Below, piece after piece: positions 42,861 to 56,220 of a stretch of DNA of 64,000 nucleotides; position 1 is the stretch's first letter, and each line of letters begins with the position of its first letter. The position numbers were made by a program, and so were the translations under genes. The notes under the pieces were generated by a model, which saw only the letters and a program-made list of their open reading frames with translations, had not been told where the DNA came from and did not search any database. Origin of the DNA: Microcaldota archaeon (GTDB taxonomy: Archaea; Micrarchaeota; Micrarchaeia; Micrarchaeales; Micrarchaeaceae); the NCBI GenBank assembly GCA_021798935.1, contig JAJZBL010000004.1:26872-90871 (forward strand), read 5' to 3'.

Positions 42861-43979
42861 TCAAAGGCTGCTGAAGTAACCTTCTGCTAATTTCCTATCC
42901 TTTACATCTGGATTCGTATTGAAAGCATCTATTGCATTTCCGTATAATACATTTTCTGGATTAAGGTATGCTTCCAGCTCTTTCAGCGATTTTTCATTCT
43001 TTGAAAAGAATACCAAACTTGGACCGGTATCCGCAGTTACGTATACATCGTCGTGTGATTTCTTAAAATTGAAGAACTTGCTCAGGTTAGCCATGCTGCT
43101 ATTATTGTGAACGAAAAATCCAGATGACATCAGTATGCCATCAAGCCTGAACATGTCTTTCTCAGCCATTGAAAGAAGGTCTTCCAATGAAAATTGGCCT
43201 TCAAGCAGCGACTTTATCCGCTTATACTTTCCAAAAATCCACTCCCTGTAGAAATCAGATTGCACTGCAGCTGAATGTGCACTTATCGTTTCTATCAATG
43301 ATTTCTCAGGTATGGTGAAAAACTTTAGGCTTTTATAATCTACATCCATCCTCTCCGCATAGCATTCTTCATTGGCTATTCCAGGAAAAGATAGCCATAA
43401 TGATATGCCGCCTGCTGCAGATCTACTTCCAGATCCTGAAACAAGACGTGCATATCTAGAGACAAACGCATTATCTGCAACGGCTTCTTTTCCAAATACA
43501 CAGCCTAAAAGTGCTCTTGCAGTGGCAGAAGCAACTGCTGCAGATTCCCCCAAACCCTTGGCCTCTTTGTACTTGCGCTCCCTTTTCAGGTAGAACTGGA
43601 AGCTGCCTTCAATATGGTTCTCCTTTCGAAACAATTCTAAGGCCTTCTCCATCCTGGCTAAATATTTCTCATTTGTTATTCCATCCACCATTATTGAATC
43701 CTTTCCTGCTTTAGAATATCTGCAGAAAGCCTTTGCAACACTAAAATCCGTATTAATTGATATCGATGGGCTATAAGCTATATTTATAGATGGGTCGTAG
43801 TAGCCTAAGAACTTTTCCAGCCCTATTATTGGGCTTCCTTCTCCGTAGCTAATCTCCCCATCCTGTGGATCAGCCACATATTCTTTCGTAGGCAGGAACT
43901 TGCCATCTTTCTGGGCAAGCCTTTGGATATCCAATCCGGTTGCCTTAAGTTCCTGGGTCTCAGAATCAGTCAATTCCAT
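42861..43979 (-). CDS. mevalonate diphosphate decarboxylase-like protein; probable mevalonate 3,5-bisphosphate decarboxylase
   Basis: KGLGESAAVASATARALLG, RYARLVSGSGSRSAAGGISLWLSFPG, VYVTADTGPSLVFFS; GHMP/MDD family; third gene of the cassette. Confidence 0.78.
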   Translation of the reverse strand: MELTDSETQELKATGLDIQRLAQKDGKFLPTKEYVADPQDGEISYGEGSPIIGLEKFLGYYDPSINIAYSPSISINTDFSVAKAFCRYSKAGKDSIMVDGITNEKYLARMEKALELFRKENHIEGSFQFYLKRERKYKEAKGLGESAAVASATARALLGCVFGKEAVADNAFVSRYARLVSGSGSRSAAGGISLWLSFPGIANEECYAERMDVDYKSLKFFTIPEKSLIETISAHSAAVQSDFYREWIFGKYKRIKSLLEGQFSLEDLLSMAEKDMFRLDGILMSSGFFVHNNSSMANLSKFFNFKKSHDDVYVTADTGPSLVFFSKNEKSLKELEAYLNPENVLYGNAIDAFNTNPDVKDRKLAEGYFSSL

Positions 43980-44586
43980 AATAATCTCCTACAAATTTAA
44001 TTATGTCCTCTCTTGTCTTGCTGTAATCAAGGTTGTCAAATATCTTTATATTGTTCTTCTTGAGCAGATTAACTGAATAATCCATTATGGTTCTATAGAC
44101 ATCTAGTTGCGCTGACAATCTGTTACCTGGGGATTTTTTGTGTGTGTATAATTCGCGCTCGTTTAGTCTCTTGGAATGCAGATCCCAATCTGATATGTAA
44201 ATATATGCAGAGCAGGCATTGTACTTCTTCAATGTATCTATGAGCTCTTGGTTTAAGTAAAGGGATTCAACAATCACATTTTCTCCATTCTTATCAGCAC
44301 GCTCGATTACTGCATTTATGCCATTGCAGATAGGTTTCGATTGTTCAAGGTACCCTTTAATTATATTTTCCTCAGTCTTTTCCCCGAAGTTTTTCCAAGC
44401 TTCATATACACTTGTCATCAATATGCCTCCTTGGTTATCTGATGGTATTATTGGCCTTGCAAACTCTCTGAGGTAATCTCCAGATAACATTATATCTATG
44501 TTGTATTTCCTTGACAATGCACCTGATATGCTTGTCTTGCCAACTCCTGGCACCCCTCCTATAAATATTATCTTGTAATCTGCCAT
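43966..44586 (-). CDS. P-loop small-molecule kinase; probable mevalonate-3-phosphate 5-kinase
   Basis: IIFIGGVPGVGKTSISGALSRKYNIDIMLSGDYLREFARPI; sits between two MDD-like genes. Confidence 0.72.
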   Translation of the reverse strand: MADYKIIFIGGVPGVGKTSISGALSRKYNIDIMLSGDYLREFARPIIPSDNQGGILMTSVYEAWKNFGEKTEENIIKGYLEQSKPICNGINAVIERADKNGENVIVESLYLNQELIDTLKKYNACSAYIYISDWDLHSKRLNERELYTHKKSPGNRLSAQLDVYRTIMDYSVNLLKKNNIKIFDNLDYSKTREDIIKFVGDYYGID

Positions 44587-44593
44587 TATACCA

Positions 44594-45580
44594 TCATTGA
44601 TATTTAACTTCTGTAACTCTTGCAGATGGAGCTACCTTATACTCCACTGGGTTTTGGCCTCTTCTCTTTAGTTCCTTTAGAACATCCTCTGCATAAGGAT
44701 TCCAGGTAAATGCATTTATAACATTGCCCCCTCCTGCAGTCCAGTAGACAGGCAGACCTGACTGCCTTATTTCTTCTACATCTATAACAGCATTCATCAT
44801 CTCTTTCTTCCTTGCTCTTCCTCCAGAGCTTTCTATCAGATAATGGGCATTTGAACAGTTGTCTTCAGCATTTGAGAACACCATATCCCAGTCCTTGTGA
44901 AGTATGCCCAATTTTATCTTCGCTTCCCATTGAGGCATCATCTTAAGCCTGTATTCGTAGAACGGATTGCTACGGGTAAGCTGGAATATCTCCGCTGCAG
45001 ATAGCCTGCTATCATAATTAAATGTCATTGCAAATATGTGTATATCTTTTAGATCCTCTTCCGATGCAAGCTGTTTTGCATAAGGTGCACCAGGGCCCTC
45101 GACAACCAATGTATTTAAGCCCCCATATACTGCCCTTATAGCAGATTCTGAGATTTTGTTTGCAAGAAATGCAATCTTCTCCGTTTCATAATTTGTCCCA
45201 AACATCTTATCTAAAGCTACAACAAATGCTGCTGCACCTGCGTCACTGCTTCCTGCAAAAACATTATAATTGTCTGACTCCGCTTTTATCCCATAATTCT
45301 TGCCGCTTTCCTTTTGGAACTCCCTGAGCACTTCTGCCATCGATTGTATTCTCTCTAACTGAAGTGCCTTGCCATTTAGGATAAAGCTTTCTAACTTCCC
45401 TGAGTCTGTCCTGCTTATATGAGTTACTACCTTTGTCTTTCCTTCACTATCTGTAACAGAAAGCCCCATCGAATTATGTAGAGGCAACCTATTATCTCTT
45501 ACACTTGATACGAATATTATTGGTATCGTAGGATTCGCTTCTGCTTTTACCTCTGATATTGCCTTTTCATTCTTAACCAT
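44594..45580 (-). CDS. MDD-like protein; probable mevalonate-3-kinase
   Basis: LPLHNSMGLSVTDSEGK...NYNVFAGSSDAGAAAFVVAL...SESAIRAVYGGLNTLVV...WTAGGGNVINAF; resembles recalled T. acidophilum M3K (Ta1305) motifs PLHTSAG / SGSSDAGAAS / FGGL / VTGGSNV. Confidence 0.82.
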   Translation of the reverse strand: MVKNEKAISEVKAEANPTIPIIFVSSVRDNRLPLHNSMGLSVTDSEGKTKVVTHISRTDSGKLESFILNGKALQLERIQSMAEVLREFQKESGKNYGIKAESDNYNVFAGSSDAGAAAFVVALDKMFGTNYETEKIAFLANKISESAIRAVYGGLNTLVVEGPGAPYAKQLASEEDLKDIHIFAMTFNYDSRLSAAEIFQLTRSNPFYEYRLKMMPQWEAKIKLGILHKDWDMVFSNAEDNCSNAHYLIESSGGRARKKEMMNAVIDVEEIRQSGLPVYWTAGGGNVINAFTWNPYAEDVLKELKRRGQNPVEYKVAPSARVTEVKYQ

Positions 45581-45748: not shown

Positions 45749-46597
45749 TTGGTGGATGTATTGCGTGTGTATTTGAAGAATCTTGAACTGCCGCATGCTG
45801 AAATAATAGGTTGCAGCAGAGAACTTGGAGATGAAAAAAAGGGCTTAAGCATTGAATTTCATCTGGATAATTACAGTATTGCAAAGGAAATTGCTTATTC
45901 TGGTAAAAGCATTAAAATTGAAAGGGCAATAAAAGACAAATCAGAGGTAAGTACCGAAGGAATTACGAACTATTCTTATTTTATTTCTTATGAACATGAT
46001 GGACTCAAGAGTAGGCTAGCATTAATCCCAAAAGATAACATAGAAGAGAGAGTTTTGGATTACTTAAGCACCCACAATGGATATTTTAAAATAGATGCTT
46101 ATTTCAGGGATATATTTGGGAGCAACATGAAAGTTGACTTCATATCAAGATACTCCAGCCATTCTAAGATTTCATCAAGAATAAAAAGGCTAAAAGTTGA
46201 AAGTGATTTATACTTTGATGAAACTGACACATGCCAAACATTATCAGTACCTTACATGCCAATCAAGCTTGCCAAGGAACTTGAGGCTGCTGAAGACTTA
46301 AAGATTGAAAAGATAACCTATCTTTATCCTTTCGGCAATGGCTATCCAAATAGCGAGGGCAAGGATTATGATTATGCTTTAAGCTTTAGATACCACGGGA
46401 TGAGGGATGAGATATACCTTGATCCAATAAAGGAGGAAACTGAAAGGCTACTTAAATACTTATCAGCGAATAATAAGGAATTCAGCTATGGCAACATCAG
46501 GCTTAATGAAGAGTCTCATTCTATAAATGTTGATTTCAGATTGAAGTACGAAATTTTGGATTTATATTTGAATGGAAAGAAGTTTCGCAGAAGCTAG
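45749..46597 (+). CDS. hypothetical protein with apparent internal repeat of the N-terminal segment
   Basis: LRVYLKNLELPHAEIIG... and KEEEDLKIEKITYLYPF... share a comparable layout (YDYALSFRYHGMRDEIYLDPIKEETERLLKYLS vs YSYFISYEHDGLKSRLALIPKDNIEERVLDYLS). Confidence 0.6.
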   Translation: MVDVLRVYLKNLELPHAEIIGCSRELGDEKKGLSIEFHLDNYSIAKEIAYSGKSIKIERAIKDKSEVSTEGITNYSYFISYEHDGLKSRLALIPKDNIEERVLDYLSTHNGYFKIDAYFRDIFGSNMKVDFISRYSSHSKISSRIKRLKVESDLYFDETDTCQTLSVPYMPIKLAKELEAAEDLKIEKITYLYPFGNGYPNSEGKDYDYALSFRYHGMRDEIYLDPIKEETERLLKYLSANNKEFSYGNIRLNEESHSINVDFRLKYEILDLYLNGKKFRRS

Positions 46598-46647
46598 TAA
46601 CCAAATATATATATTTGAATATATTTTACTATATTGGGTTGTTACTC

Positions 46648-47907
46648 ATGCCTTTTAGGATAAAAGATCTTGAAAATAATAAAAGCAGTGTAAAAAGTTT
46701 AAATAGGCAGGATAATAGCAGTAAGGACAATAGTATTATTGAGAAGGATTTAGGGAAAGAACCTAAGGCATATTTTAAGGAATCAGATATTGAGGAATTT
46801 AAGTACATTGTTGAAACTGCTTACAATGACTCAATAGAAGGTTATAGCAAGTTGGCACAGAAGTACAATAAAGAATTCAAGGCACCTAGTTTATATTTTG
46901 ATTTGAAGGATTCTTATAAAACTGCATTCGGCCTTATCGATGATTCAAAGCTTAGCTCTAAGGTTCTTGGTGCTTATGATACTGGTTTAAATAGGGTGGT
47001 TATAAAGCCTGGATTGCTTTATAAGTACATCAAAAATAAAGAGAAACCGGATGCTGTAGAGCATACAGTTGCACATGAAGTAGCACATTCGATTGTCTTC
47101 CAGTTGGGCCTTACCAAAAGCAGCAATTATGAAGGAAAGAAAGGAGTTCAGGAAAAAGTCAAGAATGAGCTGCTGGCTAACTTATTTGCTGCAGAATTGA
47201 GGGTTAAAAAGAAAGGGATGCCTCTTTCCAATGAAGCAATTGCAAAGCAGCTTATTGAAGACAATTCGGATTTATTATACTTGTCAAATGATATAGATGC
47301 TACAAAGATATACTTGAATGACTTTAAGAAGTATTCAAAAGATGTTCAAAAACTAATAAAGCATTTCTCTGATGTCGTTTACAAGTTAATAAAGCAATCG
47401 AATAAAGATGGCAAAGCCGTTGATTATGATGCACTAAATGACTATTATTCGGATAAAGTTGATAAAGTGCTGAAAGAATATTTGACCAATATGATGGGCA
47501 ATTATGCAGTACCTGTTTATAGTGCACCGGTGCTAGGTGCTGCAAAGGCGTTGCTCGGTCAAAGAAAGAGCATAGATGCAATAATTGATAGTGCATCTAA
47601 GGATCTGTCTTCAATTAAAGAGATCAAAAGATATCTTAAAGGTTCATTTGCATCTGTGAATCTAATGTCAATATCGCTTATGGAATCGGATTTTGTCAAA
47701 CTTATACCTCCGACGGTTATTACAGAATCACTAAAAGAGGATGGCATAAGCTTCAGTTACGAGAAAGCCTTCTCAAAGATATCAGACAAAGTCGAAAATG
47801 AGTTCAAGCGCTTGAATTACTACATGTCAGAGAATTTAAAAAGCGAAAAGAAGCTGCTAAGAGATTTGTCAAGGTTAGAGAAGAGCTTTGGAATAATTGA
47901 TAATTGA
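46648..47907 (+). CDS. zincin with ImmA/IrrE (M78)-like core, tandem paralog 1
   Basis: EHTVAHEVAHSIVFQLG...KNELLANLFAAELRVKKKGMPLSNEAIAKQLI. ORF-track start 46615 (TTG); ATG at 46648 aligns with GTG of paralogs 2 and 3. Confidence 0.75.
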   Translation: MPFRIKDLENNKSSVKSLNRQDNSSKDNSIIEKDLGKEPKAYFKESDIEEFKYIVETAYNDSIEGYSKLAQKYNKEFKAPSLYFDLKDSYKTAFGLIDDSKLSSKVLGAYDTGLNRVVIKPGLLYKYIKNKEKPDAVEHTVAHEVAHSIVFQLGLTKSSNYEGKKGVQEKVKNELLANLFAAELRVKKKGMPLSNEAIAKQLIEDNSDLLYLSNDIDATKIYLNDFKKYSKDVQKLIKHFSDVVYKLIKQSNKDGKAVDYDALNDYYSDKVDKVLKEYLTNMMGNYAVPVYSAPVLGAAKALLGQRKSIDAIIDSASKDLSSIKEIKRYLKGSFASVNLMSISLMESDFVKLIPPTVITESLKEDGISFSYEKAFSKISDKVENEFKRLNYYMSENLKSEKKLLRDLSRLEKSFGIIDN

Positions 47908-48072
47908 CGGTTAAATAACACGTGCAAATTTGATAACTCATTAATTAATAGTGTATTTGCTTTTTACTTGCACAAATGGGAGCCCCATTACAAATATTCA
48001 CCCTGTTTCTGACTTAAAGCATTAGGCAATTAATATATATATTTGAATTGGGATAACCTTATTGGTGTCCAA

Positions 48073-49329
48073 GTGCCGATAAAGACTAAGGATTATAATG
48101 AAAATAATGCTAATGGGGATAAAAGAGAGGAACGCATAAATGAAGGCAGTGGAGAGGATAAAACAAAGGATAACTCGAAGATACAGTTTAATGAAAAGGA
48201 TATAGAAGAGTTTAAGTCTGTAATAACACGTGTATACAAGGAGGATCTTAAGGAGTATTCAGCCATAATAAAAGATTATGGTAAAGAATTCAAGGTACCT
48301 GAATTGTACTTTGATTTGAATAATTTACAAAAAACCGGTTTCAAACTTATAGATGACTTAGAGTTAAATTCAAAAATTTTAGCCAGTTATTATTTTAAAT
48401 CTAATGAAATAACAATAAAACCAGAATTGTTGGCTTCTTATTTGAATAGCAATAAAGATTCCAATATTTTAGAACATACCTTAGCACATGAATTAGGACA
48501 TGCGATAGCTATGCAATTTGACCTTACTAAAAATGTCAATGATGATAGCAAAAAAAGTATTTATGGAACTATAACTGATGAGCTGCTGGCTAACTTATTT
48601 GCTGCAGAATCAAGGGTTAAGAAGAAAGGGATGCCTCTTTCCAATGAAGCAGTTGCAAAGCAGCTTATTAAAGACAATGTAGATCTTAATTTACTTTCAA
48701 ATGATATAGATGCAGCTAAGATATACCTGAAAAGTCTCAGAGATTATTCAAATAACACCCTTCCAAGTGTTAAAAAATTTTCCGATAACATGCATGATAA
48801 ACTTTTAGACATTTCACAGAATAGGGGAATAATTATAGGGTATGAAAATATTGAGAAAATTAACAAGCTTTATTTTGAAGGGGTAAACTTGCAATTGAAG
48901 AACTACATGGTAAATGCATTGGCGAATTATACGATACTTATCTATGCTGCACCATTGCTAGGTGCTGCAAAGGCGTTGCTTAGCGAAAAGATGCCATTTA
49001 AACAGTTTATTGACAAGGTATCAGATAATGTATCATCAATCAAAGAGATCAAAAGATATCTTAAAGGTTCATTTGCATCTTTGAATCTGCGGCTATTATC
49101 CGCAATAGAATCAGATATTATTGAAGTAAAATCTAAAGGGTTACTAATTGATAAGTTAAATGAGGGCAACTTTAAAAATTATCCGGAAGCCTTCTCAAAA
49201 ATGGCAAATGGTGTAGAGGACGAATTTAAGCAGCTGAATATTTATTTGAATATGGAGATAGAAAGTGAAAAGAAGCTGCTAAGAGATTTGTCAAGGTTGG
49301 AGAAGAGCCTTAGGATAAGAAACAATTGA
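48073..49329 (+). CDS. zincin with ImmA/IrrE (M78)-like core, tandem paralog 2
   Basis: EHTLAHELGHAIAMQFD...TDELLANLFAAESRVKKKGMPLSNEAVAKQLI. ORF-track start 48043 (TTG); alternative GTG at 48073. Confidence 0.75.
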   Translation: MPIKTKDYNENNANGDKREERINEGSGEDKTKDNSKIQFNEKDIEEFKSVITRVYKEDLKEYSAIIKDYGKEFKVPELYFDLNNLQKTGFKLIDDLELNSKILASYYFKSNEITIKPELLASYLNSNKDSNILEHTLAHELGHAIAMQFDLTKNVNDDSKKSIYGTITDELLANLFAAESRVKKKGMPLSNEAVAKQLIKDNVDLNLLSNDIDAAKIYLKSLRDYSNNTLPSVKKFSDNMHDKLLDISQNRGIIIGYENIEKINKLYFEGVNLQLKNYMVNALANYTILIYAAPLLGAAKALLSEKMPFKQFIDKVSDNVSSIKEIKRYLKGSFASLNLRLLSAIESDIIEVKSKGLLIDKLNEGNFKNYPEAFSKMANGVEDEFKQLNIYLNMEIESEKKLLRDLSRLEKSLRIRNN

Positions 49330-49494
49330 TATTTCAATAATTATTACAAATCTGATATCTTACCCAATTGGGGTATCAGTTTTGTATTTGCATTAATAGA
49401 AGTTATGTAATTATAGATATTTACTCTGCTTCTAATTTTAAGTTATTAGGCAACTAATATATATTTGAATTGGGATAACCTTATTGGTGTCCAA

Positions 49495-50769
49495 GTGCCG
49501 ATAAAGACTAAGGATTATAATGAAAATAATGCTAATGGGGATAAAAGAGAGGAACGCATAAATGAAGGCAGTGGAGAGGATAAAACAAAAGATAACTCGA
49601 AGATTCGTTTTAATGAAAAGGATGTATTGGAGTTCAAATCCACGATAAACCATCTATATAAAGAGGATACTGATGTATACTCTGATATAGTAAAAGATTA
49701 TGGTAAAGAATTCAAGGTACCTAGCTTGTATTTTGATATGGGTAATTCAAGAGAAGTTAGTTTCAATATAGATGAAGGATTGTACTCAAAAATCTTGGCT
49801 TTCTATGATCGTAAAACAAATGAGGTAGTGATAAAACCAGAATTGCTTACCTATTATTTAAATAATCATAAGGATTCTGATATTTTAGAACATGCATTAG
49901 CACATGAACTAGGGCATGCAGCAGCTAATCAATTAGGCCTTAATAAAAATATAGAGGGTAATAAAGAAGAGTATACCTATGAAATTGTAACTGTAACCAA
50001 TGAGCTGCTGGCTAACTTATTTGCTGCAGAATTGAGGGTTAAGAAGAAAGGGATGCCTCTTTCCAATGAAGCAGTTGCAAAGCAGATGGTTAAAGATGAA
50101 TTAAATCCTAGTACACTTTCAAATGATATAGATGCAGCTGAGATATACCTAAAATATCGCAGTAATTATTCTAATAATAATTTAGCGGACATCAAAGAAT
50201 TTAACAATAAAGTTTATAATAAAATTTTGGATACCACACAGAAAAAAGGTATAATAGGAGAAAAAGGTATTGAGAAAATTAACGATGGATACTTTGATTT
50301 AATGAGATTAGAATTGAGAACTTACTTTTTAAATGCATTAGCCAACCGTTCAATTCTTGTTTACAGCGCGCCTGTGCTAGGTGCTGCAAAGGCGTTGCTT
50401 AGCGAAAAGATGCCATTTAAACAGTTTATTGACAAGGTATCAGATAATGTATCATCAATTAAGGAGATCAAAAGATATCTAGATGGATCACTTGCATCTG
50501 TAAGGTTGGGTGTGTTATATAAGATAGAACCAGGAAAAGATGAACAAGAGGGCTTAATTGAATTAGAGGCTAGAACATTATTTGAGAAAAAGTTGGAAGA
50601 GGGAGGATTTAAAAATTATCCAGAAGCTTTCTTAAAAATGACAAAATACTTGGAAGGCGAATTTGATGAGTTAAATTATTACTTTAATATAGGAATAGAA
50701 AGTGAAAAGAAGCTGCTAAGAGATTTGTCAATTTTAGATAATAGCCTTGGGATAAAACGTAGTGAGTAA
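49495..50769 (+). CDS. zincin with ImmA/IrrE (M78)-like core, tandem paralog 3
   Basis: EHALAHELGHAAANQLG...TNELLANLFAAELRVKKKGMPLSNEAVAKQMV. ORF-track start 49465 (TTG); alternative GTG at 49495. Confidence 0.75.
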   Translation: MPIKTKDYNENNANGDKREERINEGSGEDKTKDNSKIRFNEKDVLEFKSTINHLYKEDTDVYSDIVKDYGKEFKVPSLYFDMGNSREVSFNIDEGLYSKILAFYDRKTNEVVIKPELLTYYLNNHKDSDILEHALAHELGHAAANQLGLNKNIEGNKEEYTYEIVTVTNELLANLFAAELRVKKKGMPLSNEAVAKQMVKDELNPSTLSNDIDAAEIYLKYRSNYSNNNLADIKEFNNKVYNKILDTTQKKGIIGEKGIEKINDGYFDLMRLELRTYFLNALANRSILVYSAPVLGAAKALLSEKMPFKQFIDKVSDNVSSIKEIKRYLDGSLASVRLGVLYKIEPGKDEQEGLIELEARTLFEKKLEEGGFKNYPEAFLKMTKYLEGEFDELNYYFNIGIESEKKLLRDLSILDNSLGIKRSE

Positions 50770-53841: not shown

Positions 53842-55035
53842 TCAGGCTTTAAGAAGAGGTATCTCTATCTCCTCCTTGGAAAGCCCTCCGTGATGGCCCG
53901 ATGAACCTGAAATCCACTCTTTTCCTCCTGGATACTCTCTGCCTCCTGGATATTTGTAATATATTATGTTTTTCCGAGTGGCTATAGCTATGTGAGTTCC
54001 GAAACGATACCTTAAGGAATCGTCTACTTTCGTACTGCCGAATAAGCCAGATTTTATAGCATCGTTTGAATCATATAAGACAAAGTTCTTGCTGAACTCC
54101 TTATTGAATTCTTTTTCAAATTTCTCTTCTAAACCTTCAGATGAATCAAAGAACATGCTTCTGTCAGTGCCCCATGGCGGGTTTCTCAGATATTTTAGTG
54201 CACTGCTTCTCGCATCAAATCTGCTTATATCATCATGCTTTGAGGAAATCTGCCCATGGTCTGATGATATGATCAATTCCCATCCATTGTCCTTCAGCTT
54301 TGGCAGGAGCTTCTCCATTATCATCTCCAAGATGAATACAGTAATATGCAATACGCGCCTAGATTCCTTCGAGTATTCATGCTGCGCATGGTCTATATCC
54401 GGAATATAAGCATATACTAAGTTGTACTTATCAGATTCTGCAATATCAATCGATTGATATAGGAGATCATCAAATGATATGTAATCCGTATAATTGATAT
54501 TGTTGTATAAATAGGTTTGAGAGTTCTTTTGGTTGACCCGCTCAAACTGCATATACATGAAGTCTTTTCTTTTTCCCATCTTTAGCAGTGTATCTAAGCT
54601 TGGAAATAAGGAGTTGGCATCGGATTTGCCTGAAACTTCATCCAACAATGGGCTCCATGGAAGTGAAAGTATGTCCTTTATTGTCCCGTACTCTCGTATA
54701 GGAAGAGGGCTTCCTATTATTCCGTGTTCTGCAGGTGTTTTGCCTGAATCTATGCTTGTAAATGCTGTTGGGGTAAAGGATGGAAATACGGTGCTTATTT
54801 TGCTTATTTGCATTTTGGAAGGCAACTTCTTAAGCTGCTTGCTATTAGATATTGCTGATTTTAATAAATCCTGTCCAAAACCATCAATAAAAAGAAGAAA
54901 TCTTCTTTTCTTCTTTCCTCCTATGAGCTTTCCATGGCCCTCAGCCACCTCCTTTGCAAGCTCCATGTTGCTATTTCCGTAATCTGGGAAAGCAAATCCC
55001 TTGTCAATTAGGTCAGATTTTATGCTTTGCATCAA
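53842..55035 (-). CDS. alkaline phosphatase superfamily protein, tandem copy A
   Basis: FLLFIDGFGQDLLKSAIS, FPSFTPTAFTSIDSGKTPAEHGIIGSPLPIREYG, IPDIDHAQHEYS, LIISSDHGQ, SGHHGGLSKEE. Confidence 0.9.
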   Translation of the reverse strand: MMQSIKSDLIDKGFAFPDYGNSNMELAKEVAEGHGKLIGGKKKRRFLLFIDGFGQDLLKSAISNSKQLKKLPSKMQISKISTVFPSFTPTAFTSIDSGKTPAEHGIIGSPLPIREYGTIKDILSLPWSPLLDEVSGKSDANSLFPSLDTLLKMGKRKDFMYMQFERVNQKNSQTYLYNNINYTDYISFDDLLYQSIDIAESDKYNLVYAYIPDIDHAQHEYSKESRRVLHITVFILEMIMEKLLPKLKDNGWELIISSDHGQISSKHDDISRFDARSSALKYLRNPPWGTDRSMFFDSSEGLEEKFEKEFNKEFSKNFVLYDSNDAIKSGLFGSTKVDDSLRYRFGTHIAIATRKNIIYYKYPGGREYPGGKEWISGSSGHHGGLSKEEIEIPLLKA

Positions 55036-55047
55036 ATCACTACCGAT

Positions 55048-56220
55048 TCAGGCTTTGAGGAGAGGTATCTCCATCTCCTCCTTGGAAAGCCCTCCGTGGT
55101 GACCCGATAGCTCTGATGTCCATAATTTGCCTCCAGGATATCTGTAATGGAACAGGCTGTTGTGCTTTCCTATAGCTATGTGAGTTCCGAAACGATACCT
55201 TAAGGAATCGTCTACCTTCGTGCTGCCAAATAAGCCAGATTTTATCGCTTCATCTGAATCATATAAGACAAAGTTCTTGCTGAACTCCTTATTGAACTCT
55301 TTTTCAAATTTATCTTCTAAACCTTCAGCCGCATCAAATAACATCATTCTGTCCGTGCCCCAAGGGGAATTCCTAAGGTATTTTAGGATTTCACTCTTTG
55401 CATCAAGATCAATCGTATCTTCACGTTTTGAGGAAACTTGCCCATGGTCTGATGATATGATCAATTCCCATCCATTGTCCTTCAGCTTTGGCAGGAGCTT
55501 CTCCATCAACCTCTCAATCATCAATTGGGTTATTCCCAATCCAAGCCTGGATGTTTTCGTGTACATGTGCTGCGCATGGTCTATATCAGGAATATAAGCA
55601 TACACCGTATTATACTGGTCTGACTCCGCAATGTCTATGGATTGGAAAATAAAATCATCAAATGATATGTATCCGGTATAATTGATCTTGCTATATACAT
55701 ATGTCTGCTCATTCTTCCTTACTACCTGCTCAAACTGCATATATATAAAGTCTTTTTTGCTTCCCATTTTCAGCAATGTATCAGGAACTGGAAATATAGG
55801 TTTTGTTTCAGATTGGCCTGAAATTTCATCCAACGATGGGCTCCATGGAAGTGAAAACATATCTTTCATAGCTCCATACTCTCGTATAGGAAGGGGGCTT
55901 CCTATTATTCCGTGTTCTGCAGGTGTCTTGCCTGAATCTATGCTTGTGAATACGCTAGGAGTAAAAGAAGGGAATACAGTACTTATTTTTTCTATCTGCA
56001 TCTCTGATGATAATTTCTTAAGCTGCTTGCTATTGGATATTGCAGATTTCAATAAGTCGTATCCAAGGCCATCCATAAATATAAGGAATCTCCTTTTTTT
56101 CTTTCCTCCTATGAGCTTTCCATGGCCCTCAGCTACCTCCTTTGCAAGCTCCATGTTGCTATTCTCATAATCAGGAAAAGCAAATCCCTTGTCAATTAGG
56201 TCAGATTTTATGCCATTCAT
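55048..56220 (-). CDS. alkaline phosphatase superfamily protein, tandem copy B
   Basis: Near-identical blocks to copy A: IPDIDHAQHMYT, LIISSDHGQ, SGHHGGLSKEEMEIPLLKA. Confidence 0.9.
   Translation of the reverse strand: MNGIKSDLIDKGFAFPDYENSNMELAKEVAEGHGKLIGGKKKRRFLIFMDGLGYDLLKSAISNSKQLKKLSSEMQIEKISTVFPSFTPSVFTSIDSGKTPAEHGIIGSPLPIREYGAMKDMFSLPWSPSLDEISGQSETKPIFPVPDTLLKMGSKKDFIYMQFEQVVRKNEQTYVYSKINYTGYISFDDFIFQSIDIAESDQYNTVYAYIPDIDHAQHMYTKTSRLGLGITQLMIERLMEKLLPKLKDNGWELIISSDHGQVSSKREDTIDLDAKSEILKYLRNSPWGTDRMMLFDAAEGLEDKFEKEFNKEFSKNFVLYDSDEAIKSGLFGSTKVDDSLRYRFGTHIAIGKHNSLFHYRYPGGKLWTSELSGHHGGLSKEEMEIPLLKA

Follow-up and report, generated by a model that had tools for sequence, protein, structure and literature searches.

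Organization of the zincin array

The window, a stretch of 64,000 nucleotides from a Microcaldota archaeon of the Micrarchaeaceae, carries three co-oriented tandem open reading frames on the (+) strand at 46.6-50.8 kb, the tandem triplet that the initial annotation had described. Read from their aligned starts, the genes encode proteins of about 420 residues each, with an HExxH motif (HEVAH in copy 1, HELGH in copies 2 and 3) followed 26-28 residues downstream by ELLANLFAAE (or ...AAES). Two congeners also carry the genes: Mia14 ('Ca. Mancarchaeum acidiphilum', assembled as one contig of 952,257 bases) and isolate WH3.bin4 ('Candidatus Micrarchaeota archaeon', hereafter WH3).

46648..47907, + strand: copy 1, predicted zincin gene with HEVAH; orthologue of Mia14 copy 1 and WH3 copy 1; listed TTG start at 46615
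48073..49329, + strand: copy 2, predicted zincin gene with HELGH; orthologue of Mia14 copy 2 and WH3 copy 2; listed TTG start at 48043
49495..50769, + strand: copy 3, predicted zincin gene with HELGH; later duplicate of copy 2; listed TTG start at 49465

A TATA-like TATATATTTGAAT box lies about 30 bases 5' of an aligned ATG/GTG-Pro start in every copy, both here and in Mia14, and the listed TTG codons sit at the end of this box or just past it. Because the box and the aligned starts point downstream, the TTGs are probably too early, and the likely starts are 46648 (ATG), 48073 (GTG), and 49495 (GTG). Copies 2 and 3 are 65% identical as proteins; copy 1 shares 46% with copy 2 and 43% with copy 3. 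No fourth copy was found in the 857-kb assembly of the same genome, and an Rfam search gave no match.

Mia14 has two copies at the same locus between the same flanking genes, and WH3 has two, one on each of two contigs. In a protein tree, some forks of which fall under the usual support threshold, copy 1 groups with Mia14 copy 1, and copies 2 and 3 group with Mia14 copy 2 and WH3 copy 2. This grouping of the sequences therefore shows an ancestral pair older than the split of the genus, with copy 2 duplicated again in the window lineage to yield copy 3.

Mosaic identity between the copies

Identity between the copies is not uniform along the alignment. Nearly identical blocks alternate with divergent segments, as the initial annotation had noted, and the blocks common to the copies contain identical nucleotide stretches of 25-89 bases.

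48577..48672, + strand: conversion block A in copy 2, covering the third-ligand helix ELLANLFAAE...AKQL (residues 169-200)
near 47164-47260 (copy 1) and 49999-50090 (copy 3), + strand: counterparts of block A
48956..48981, + strand: conversion block B in copy 2, LGAAKALL, within an 85-base identical run in copies 2 and 3
49039..49083, + strand: conversion block C in copy 2, residues 323-336, KEIKRYLKGSFAS
49258..49301, + strand: conversion block D in copy 2, ESEKKLLRDLSRL
48073..48170, + strand (copy 2): 5' block confined to copies 2 and 3, with a run of 89 identical bases (KTKDYNENNANGDKREERINEGSGEDKT) and with shared DNA also reaching upstream of the start

The longest identical runs exceed what column shuffling produces: 39 bases for copies 1 and 2, 44 for copies 1 and 3, and 89 for copies 2 and 3, against maxima of 26, 22, and 39 in 2000 shuffles. 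The two Mia14 copies share a longest run of 32 bases, which also lies beyond 2000 column shuffles, and no orthologue pair tested contains an identical run of at least 20 bases. A scan without preselected blocks finds residues 170-200 (0/20,000 permutations) and 323-336 (p=0.00025), both of which coincide with blocks named in the initial annotation. Restricted to third positions, with far fewer sites, the scan is weaker (p=0.01-0.06).

Short-tract gene conversion

Trees and silent sites identify the process behind the mosaic. For blocks chosen from the list in the initial annotation and from the alignment, the ortholog tree is rejected inside the blocks (AU p=1.8e-4), where copies of one genome cluster together and the two from Mia14 are joined with 100% support. 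Elsewhere in the genes, orthologues cluster and concerted trees are rejected (p<=1.7e-5). Third positions of copies 1 and 2 diverge by 0.15 inside the blocks versus 0.59 outside. Copy 1 and its orthologue differ by 0.56 inside and 0.58 outside; since these third positions differ alike inside and outside, the blocks are under no special silent-site constraint.

The mosaic is thus demonstrated to result from short-tract gene conversion, one of the two processes first proposed for it, and this has taken place in two lineages: since the block sequences of the window genome and of Mia14 are distinct, homogenization took place separately in the two. Chimeric assembly of the array is unlikely, as the single-contig Mia14 genome shows the same pattern. 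Selection on protein motifs in place of conversion would account for the coincidence of the blocks with conserved motifs, but it is highly improbable given the tree conflict, the near-identity of block silent sites within the genome (0.15) as against 0.56 between orthologues, and the common block sequence that Mia14's two copies have for themselves. In other genera, the longest run common to tandem or near pairs of zincin genes is 24 bases, a weak sign of conversion, and with runs this short no claim of conversion is made for them.

Rate of evolution and selection

Copy 1 is 59% and copy 2 is 54% identical to its Mia14 counterpart, and 12 other syntenic genes range from 64 to 98%. In pairwise comparisons dN is lower than dS overall, which lends no support to the diversifying selection that had also been proposed for the array. 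Local windows with pN at or above pS fall in or beside conversion tracts; because conversion erased silent differences there, they are no evidence of positive selection. Diversifying selection is not needed, since conversion at constrained patches suffices to explain the pattern.

Family identity and structural relationships

In an alignment of 31 family members, the two His and the Glu of HExxH never vary, and the third-ligand position is E in 27 members and D in 4. The C-terminal YxxPxLGxAxAL segment is also conserved, with its Tyr present in 31/31. The profile of these 31 members is too diverse for a pattern scan.

No family of Pfam or NCBIfam was reached, the NCBIfam matches being weak and far under their cut-offs. 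SprT (Pfam PF10263) gives 20-22 bits against a cut-off of 25.6, with sub-threshold matches in 4/31 members, and M57, DUF4344, and MPTase-PolyVal also stay under threshold. The sub-threshold matches to M78, SprT, M57, and DUF4344 cover the same residues. PADLOC capP matches 6/31 members (best E=1.7e-5), phage PHROGs match some members down to 4.9e-8, and the best match to a solved-structure profile is the M13 core (E=0.0024).

The initial annotation had likened the proteins to the ImmA/IrrE (M78) peptidases, a label that the profile scores do not support. The best Pfam M78 (PF06114) scores, 19.0 bits in protein searches and 20.9 in genome mode, stay below the cut-off of 22, and hhalign against true Micrarchaeota M78 proteins gives a probability of 26% over 44 columns. 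HExxH and the ExxAN helix occur in all members of genera g1 and g17, whereas the asparagine is found in only 10/31 members of the family. There is a resemblance to the M78/ImmA-IrrE-PprI/CapP group in the order of HExxH and an E-x-x-A helix, in the ELLANLFAAE of the window genus, in solubility and lack of a signal peptide, and in weak profile matches over about 60 residues; apart from the scores and the asparagine, the array family differs in having neither an HTH domain nor an HTH partner and in its C-terminal segment. Searches of the copies yielded no HTH family match, whereas several of the phylum's genuine M78 proteins carry an HTH domain.

AlphaFold2 was run on four sequences, the three window copies and the WH3 copy. 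The full-length model is unusable and the domain model weak (pLDDT 42 and 52), the latter reaching mostly 55-80 over the first ~110 residues and lower values afterwards. Its PDB matches place selecase/jannalysin first, with BlaR1 and PprI lower, none of them significant (E 0.075-0.6 for selecase/jannalysin of Methanocaldococcus jannaschii, E=0.95 for PprI, ranked under selecase).

Each of these groups resembles the array proteins in part. Selecase and jannalysin are small soluble archaeal zinc peptidases, but they comprise only ~110 residues without the C-terminal helical part. Peptidases of the M13 group (neprilysin/ECE) have a similar A-Y-x-x-x-x-N-x-I hairpin before HExxH, although their chains run to about 630-700 residues and the match covers the core only. 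SprT-like proteins share the HExxH core, yet the array scores under the 25.6-bit cut-off. Taken together, the weak profile and structure matches support a generic zincin or gluzincin-like core for the array proteins, and not specifically that of M78. The array represents a gluzincin-like family that is uncatalogued and has a conserved segment at its C terminus; the kind of enzyme is known, and the family is new.

Distribution and genomic neighborhood

Iterated profiles match 21/301 Micrarchaeota genomes and up to 9/126 genera, nearly all of one family, although the weakest matches (genera g6 and g21 and some third matches) are other open reading frames, several of 650-800 residues, that may not belong. 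The distribution covers some Micrarchaeales, mostly relatives at the level of the Micrarchaeaceae, with typically 1-5 copies per genome. Members of genus g17 carry additional sequence at the N terminus, and in one of them a further HExxH-like motif, HEGFH, occurs. One family member is broken by an in-frame TGA in two genomes (locus L042 in genome G257, contig C6, and locus L053 in G255, contig C2) and is probably a decaying copy.

Hydropathy shows no clear signal peptide or transmembrane helix in the 31 members. Neighborhoods were compared in 17 genomes, and neither a recurrent HTH regulator beside family members nor any other neighbor or operon partner conserved across genera was found, extending the earlier remark that no HTH partner lies nearby. 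No relatives were found in the viral contigs and plasmids searched.

The gene directly 5' of the array, at 45749-46597 on the (+) strand, encodes 282 residues and has no Pfam or NCBIfam match. Its product is 65% identical in Mia14, where there is also a weak second match, and has a distant homologue in WH3. It was rejected as an obligatory partner, being genus-restricted and lying on a different contig in WH3. Further upstream, at 42861-45580 on the (-) strand, two GHMP/MVD-like genes flank a P-loop kinase in an order that is the same in Mia14; one of the two also has a weak mevalonate-3-kinase C-terminal match, and the group looks like a Thermoplasma-type mevalonate-3-kinase pathway cluster. 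Downstream, a tandem pair of paralogues of 397 and 390 residues (53842-56220, (-) strand), phosphodiesterase-like by eye, is likewise tandem in Mia14.

Other genomes display local neighbors of their own. A multi-pass membrane protein of about 500 residues adjoins zincin genes in g17 (L016:10532-13567, L031:10309-11805), and in one genome of this genus (G018) two near-identical tandem copies of it lie between the two zincin genes. In g19, a protein of about 100 residues, TRAM-like by eye, is encoded near the zincin genes (L033:6034-6336, L034:7803-8099, L129:6637-6894, L132:4983-5426), its frame overlapping the zincin start in L033 and L034. Directly 5' of the WH3 copy-1 orthologue is a gene for a repeat-rich protein of 1013 residues with no clear family (L015:4754-7795).

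Proposed function

It is reasonably likely, judging from sequence, that the array stems from a tandem expansion, specific to its lineage, of cytosolic, probably catalytically competent gluzincin-type zinc endopeptidases of narrow specificity, with different substrates for each copy. A cytosolic location is probable because no signal peptide or transmembrane segment is detected by hydropathy in the 31 members. Zinc would be held by both His residues and the Glu/Asp of HExxH...E, and its activated water would cleave the peptide bonds. The choice of the bound protein may lie with the variable parts (N-terminal helix, loops, and middle region), while the C-terminal helical part may position or regulate the active site. 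Each copy would be transcribed from its own promoter, in keeping with the TATA-like box before each.

Over the history of the array, the copies diverged fast while short tracts of about 25-90 bp passed from one to another, chiefly at constrained patches: the third-zinc-ligand helix, the YxxPxLGxAxAL segment, and a C-terminal helix. These patches presumably stay similar enough to seed conversion, and diverged stretches would escape it. The copies could then act as narrow-specificity proteases on separate substrates, much as PprI/IrrE, CapP, or selecase do. A fixed scaffold with a drifting remainder fits such proteases better than a housekeeping enzyme. Copy-specific substrates are suggested only by the divergence, which relaxed constraint could equally explain.

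An alternative is that the proteins are effector or conflict proteases directed at a Thermoplasmatales host or at invaders and diversified by an arms race. The family is multicopy, patchy, and fast-evolving, and Mia14 lives with a Cuniculiplasma host (PMC5498576), an association in line with a host-directed role. Such a role is possible; it gains no support from location, mobility, or export signals, and is unlikely overall: the members have no signal peptide or transmembrane segment, their chromosomal place is conserved between species, no defense, mobile, or secretion genes are conserved adjacent to them, relatives were not found in viral contigs or plasmids, and dN is lower than dS. More doubtful is a multicopy conflict family acting against host or invaders in which conversion would reshuffle specificity segments around a fixed catalytic scaffold.

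Similarly improbable is the reading of these proteins as divergent members of the ImmA/IrrE (M78) group, acting on an unlinked repressor that they would cleave upon DNA damage or in response to mobile elements. The resemblance of ELLANLFAAE to the M78 motif, the sub-threshold M78 and capP matches, and the presence of PprI among the weak fold matches are set against the scores, the sparse asparagine, the lack of an HTH domain, and the lack of a regulator conserved next to the genes. A role in DNA damage or conflict is a guess.

Implications

Under the preferred reading, a set of narrow-specificity endopeptidases, the array is of interest for the economy of these organisms: DPANN genomes are reduced, yet about 4 kb here goes to three diverging copies, and relatives have up to five. 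The protease that these genes would encode is named by none of the libraries used in the analysis. Archaeal gene conversion limited to constrained patches is also seen here in a clean form, and the orthologues serve as the control. The locus is intact in Mia14, which is grown in co-culture with its host, so that expression, localization, and targets of the proteins are accessible to tests.
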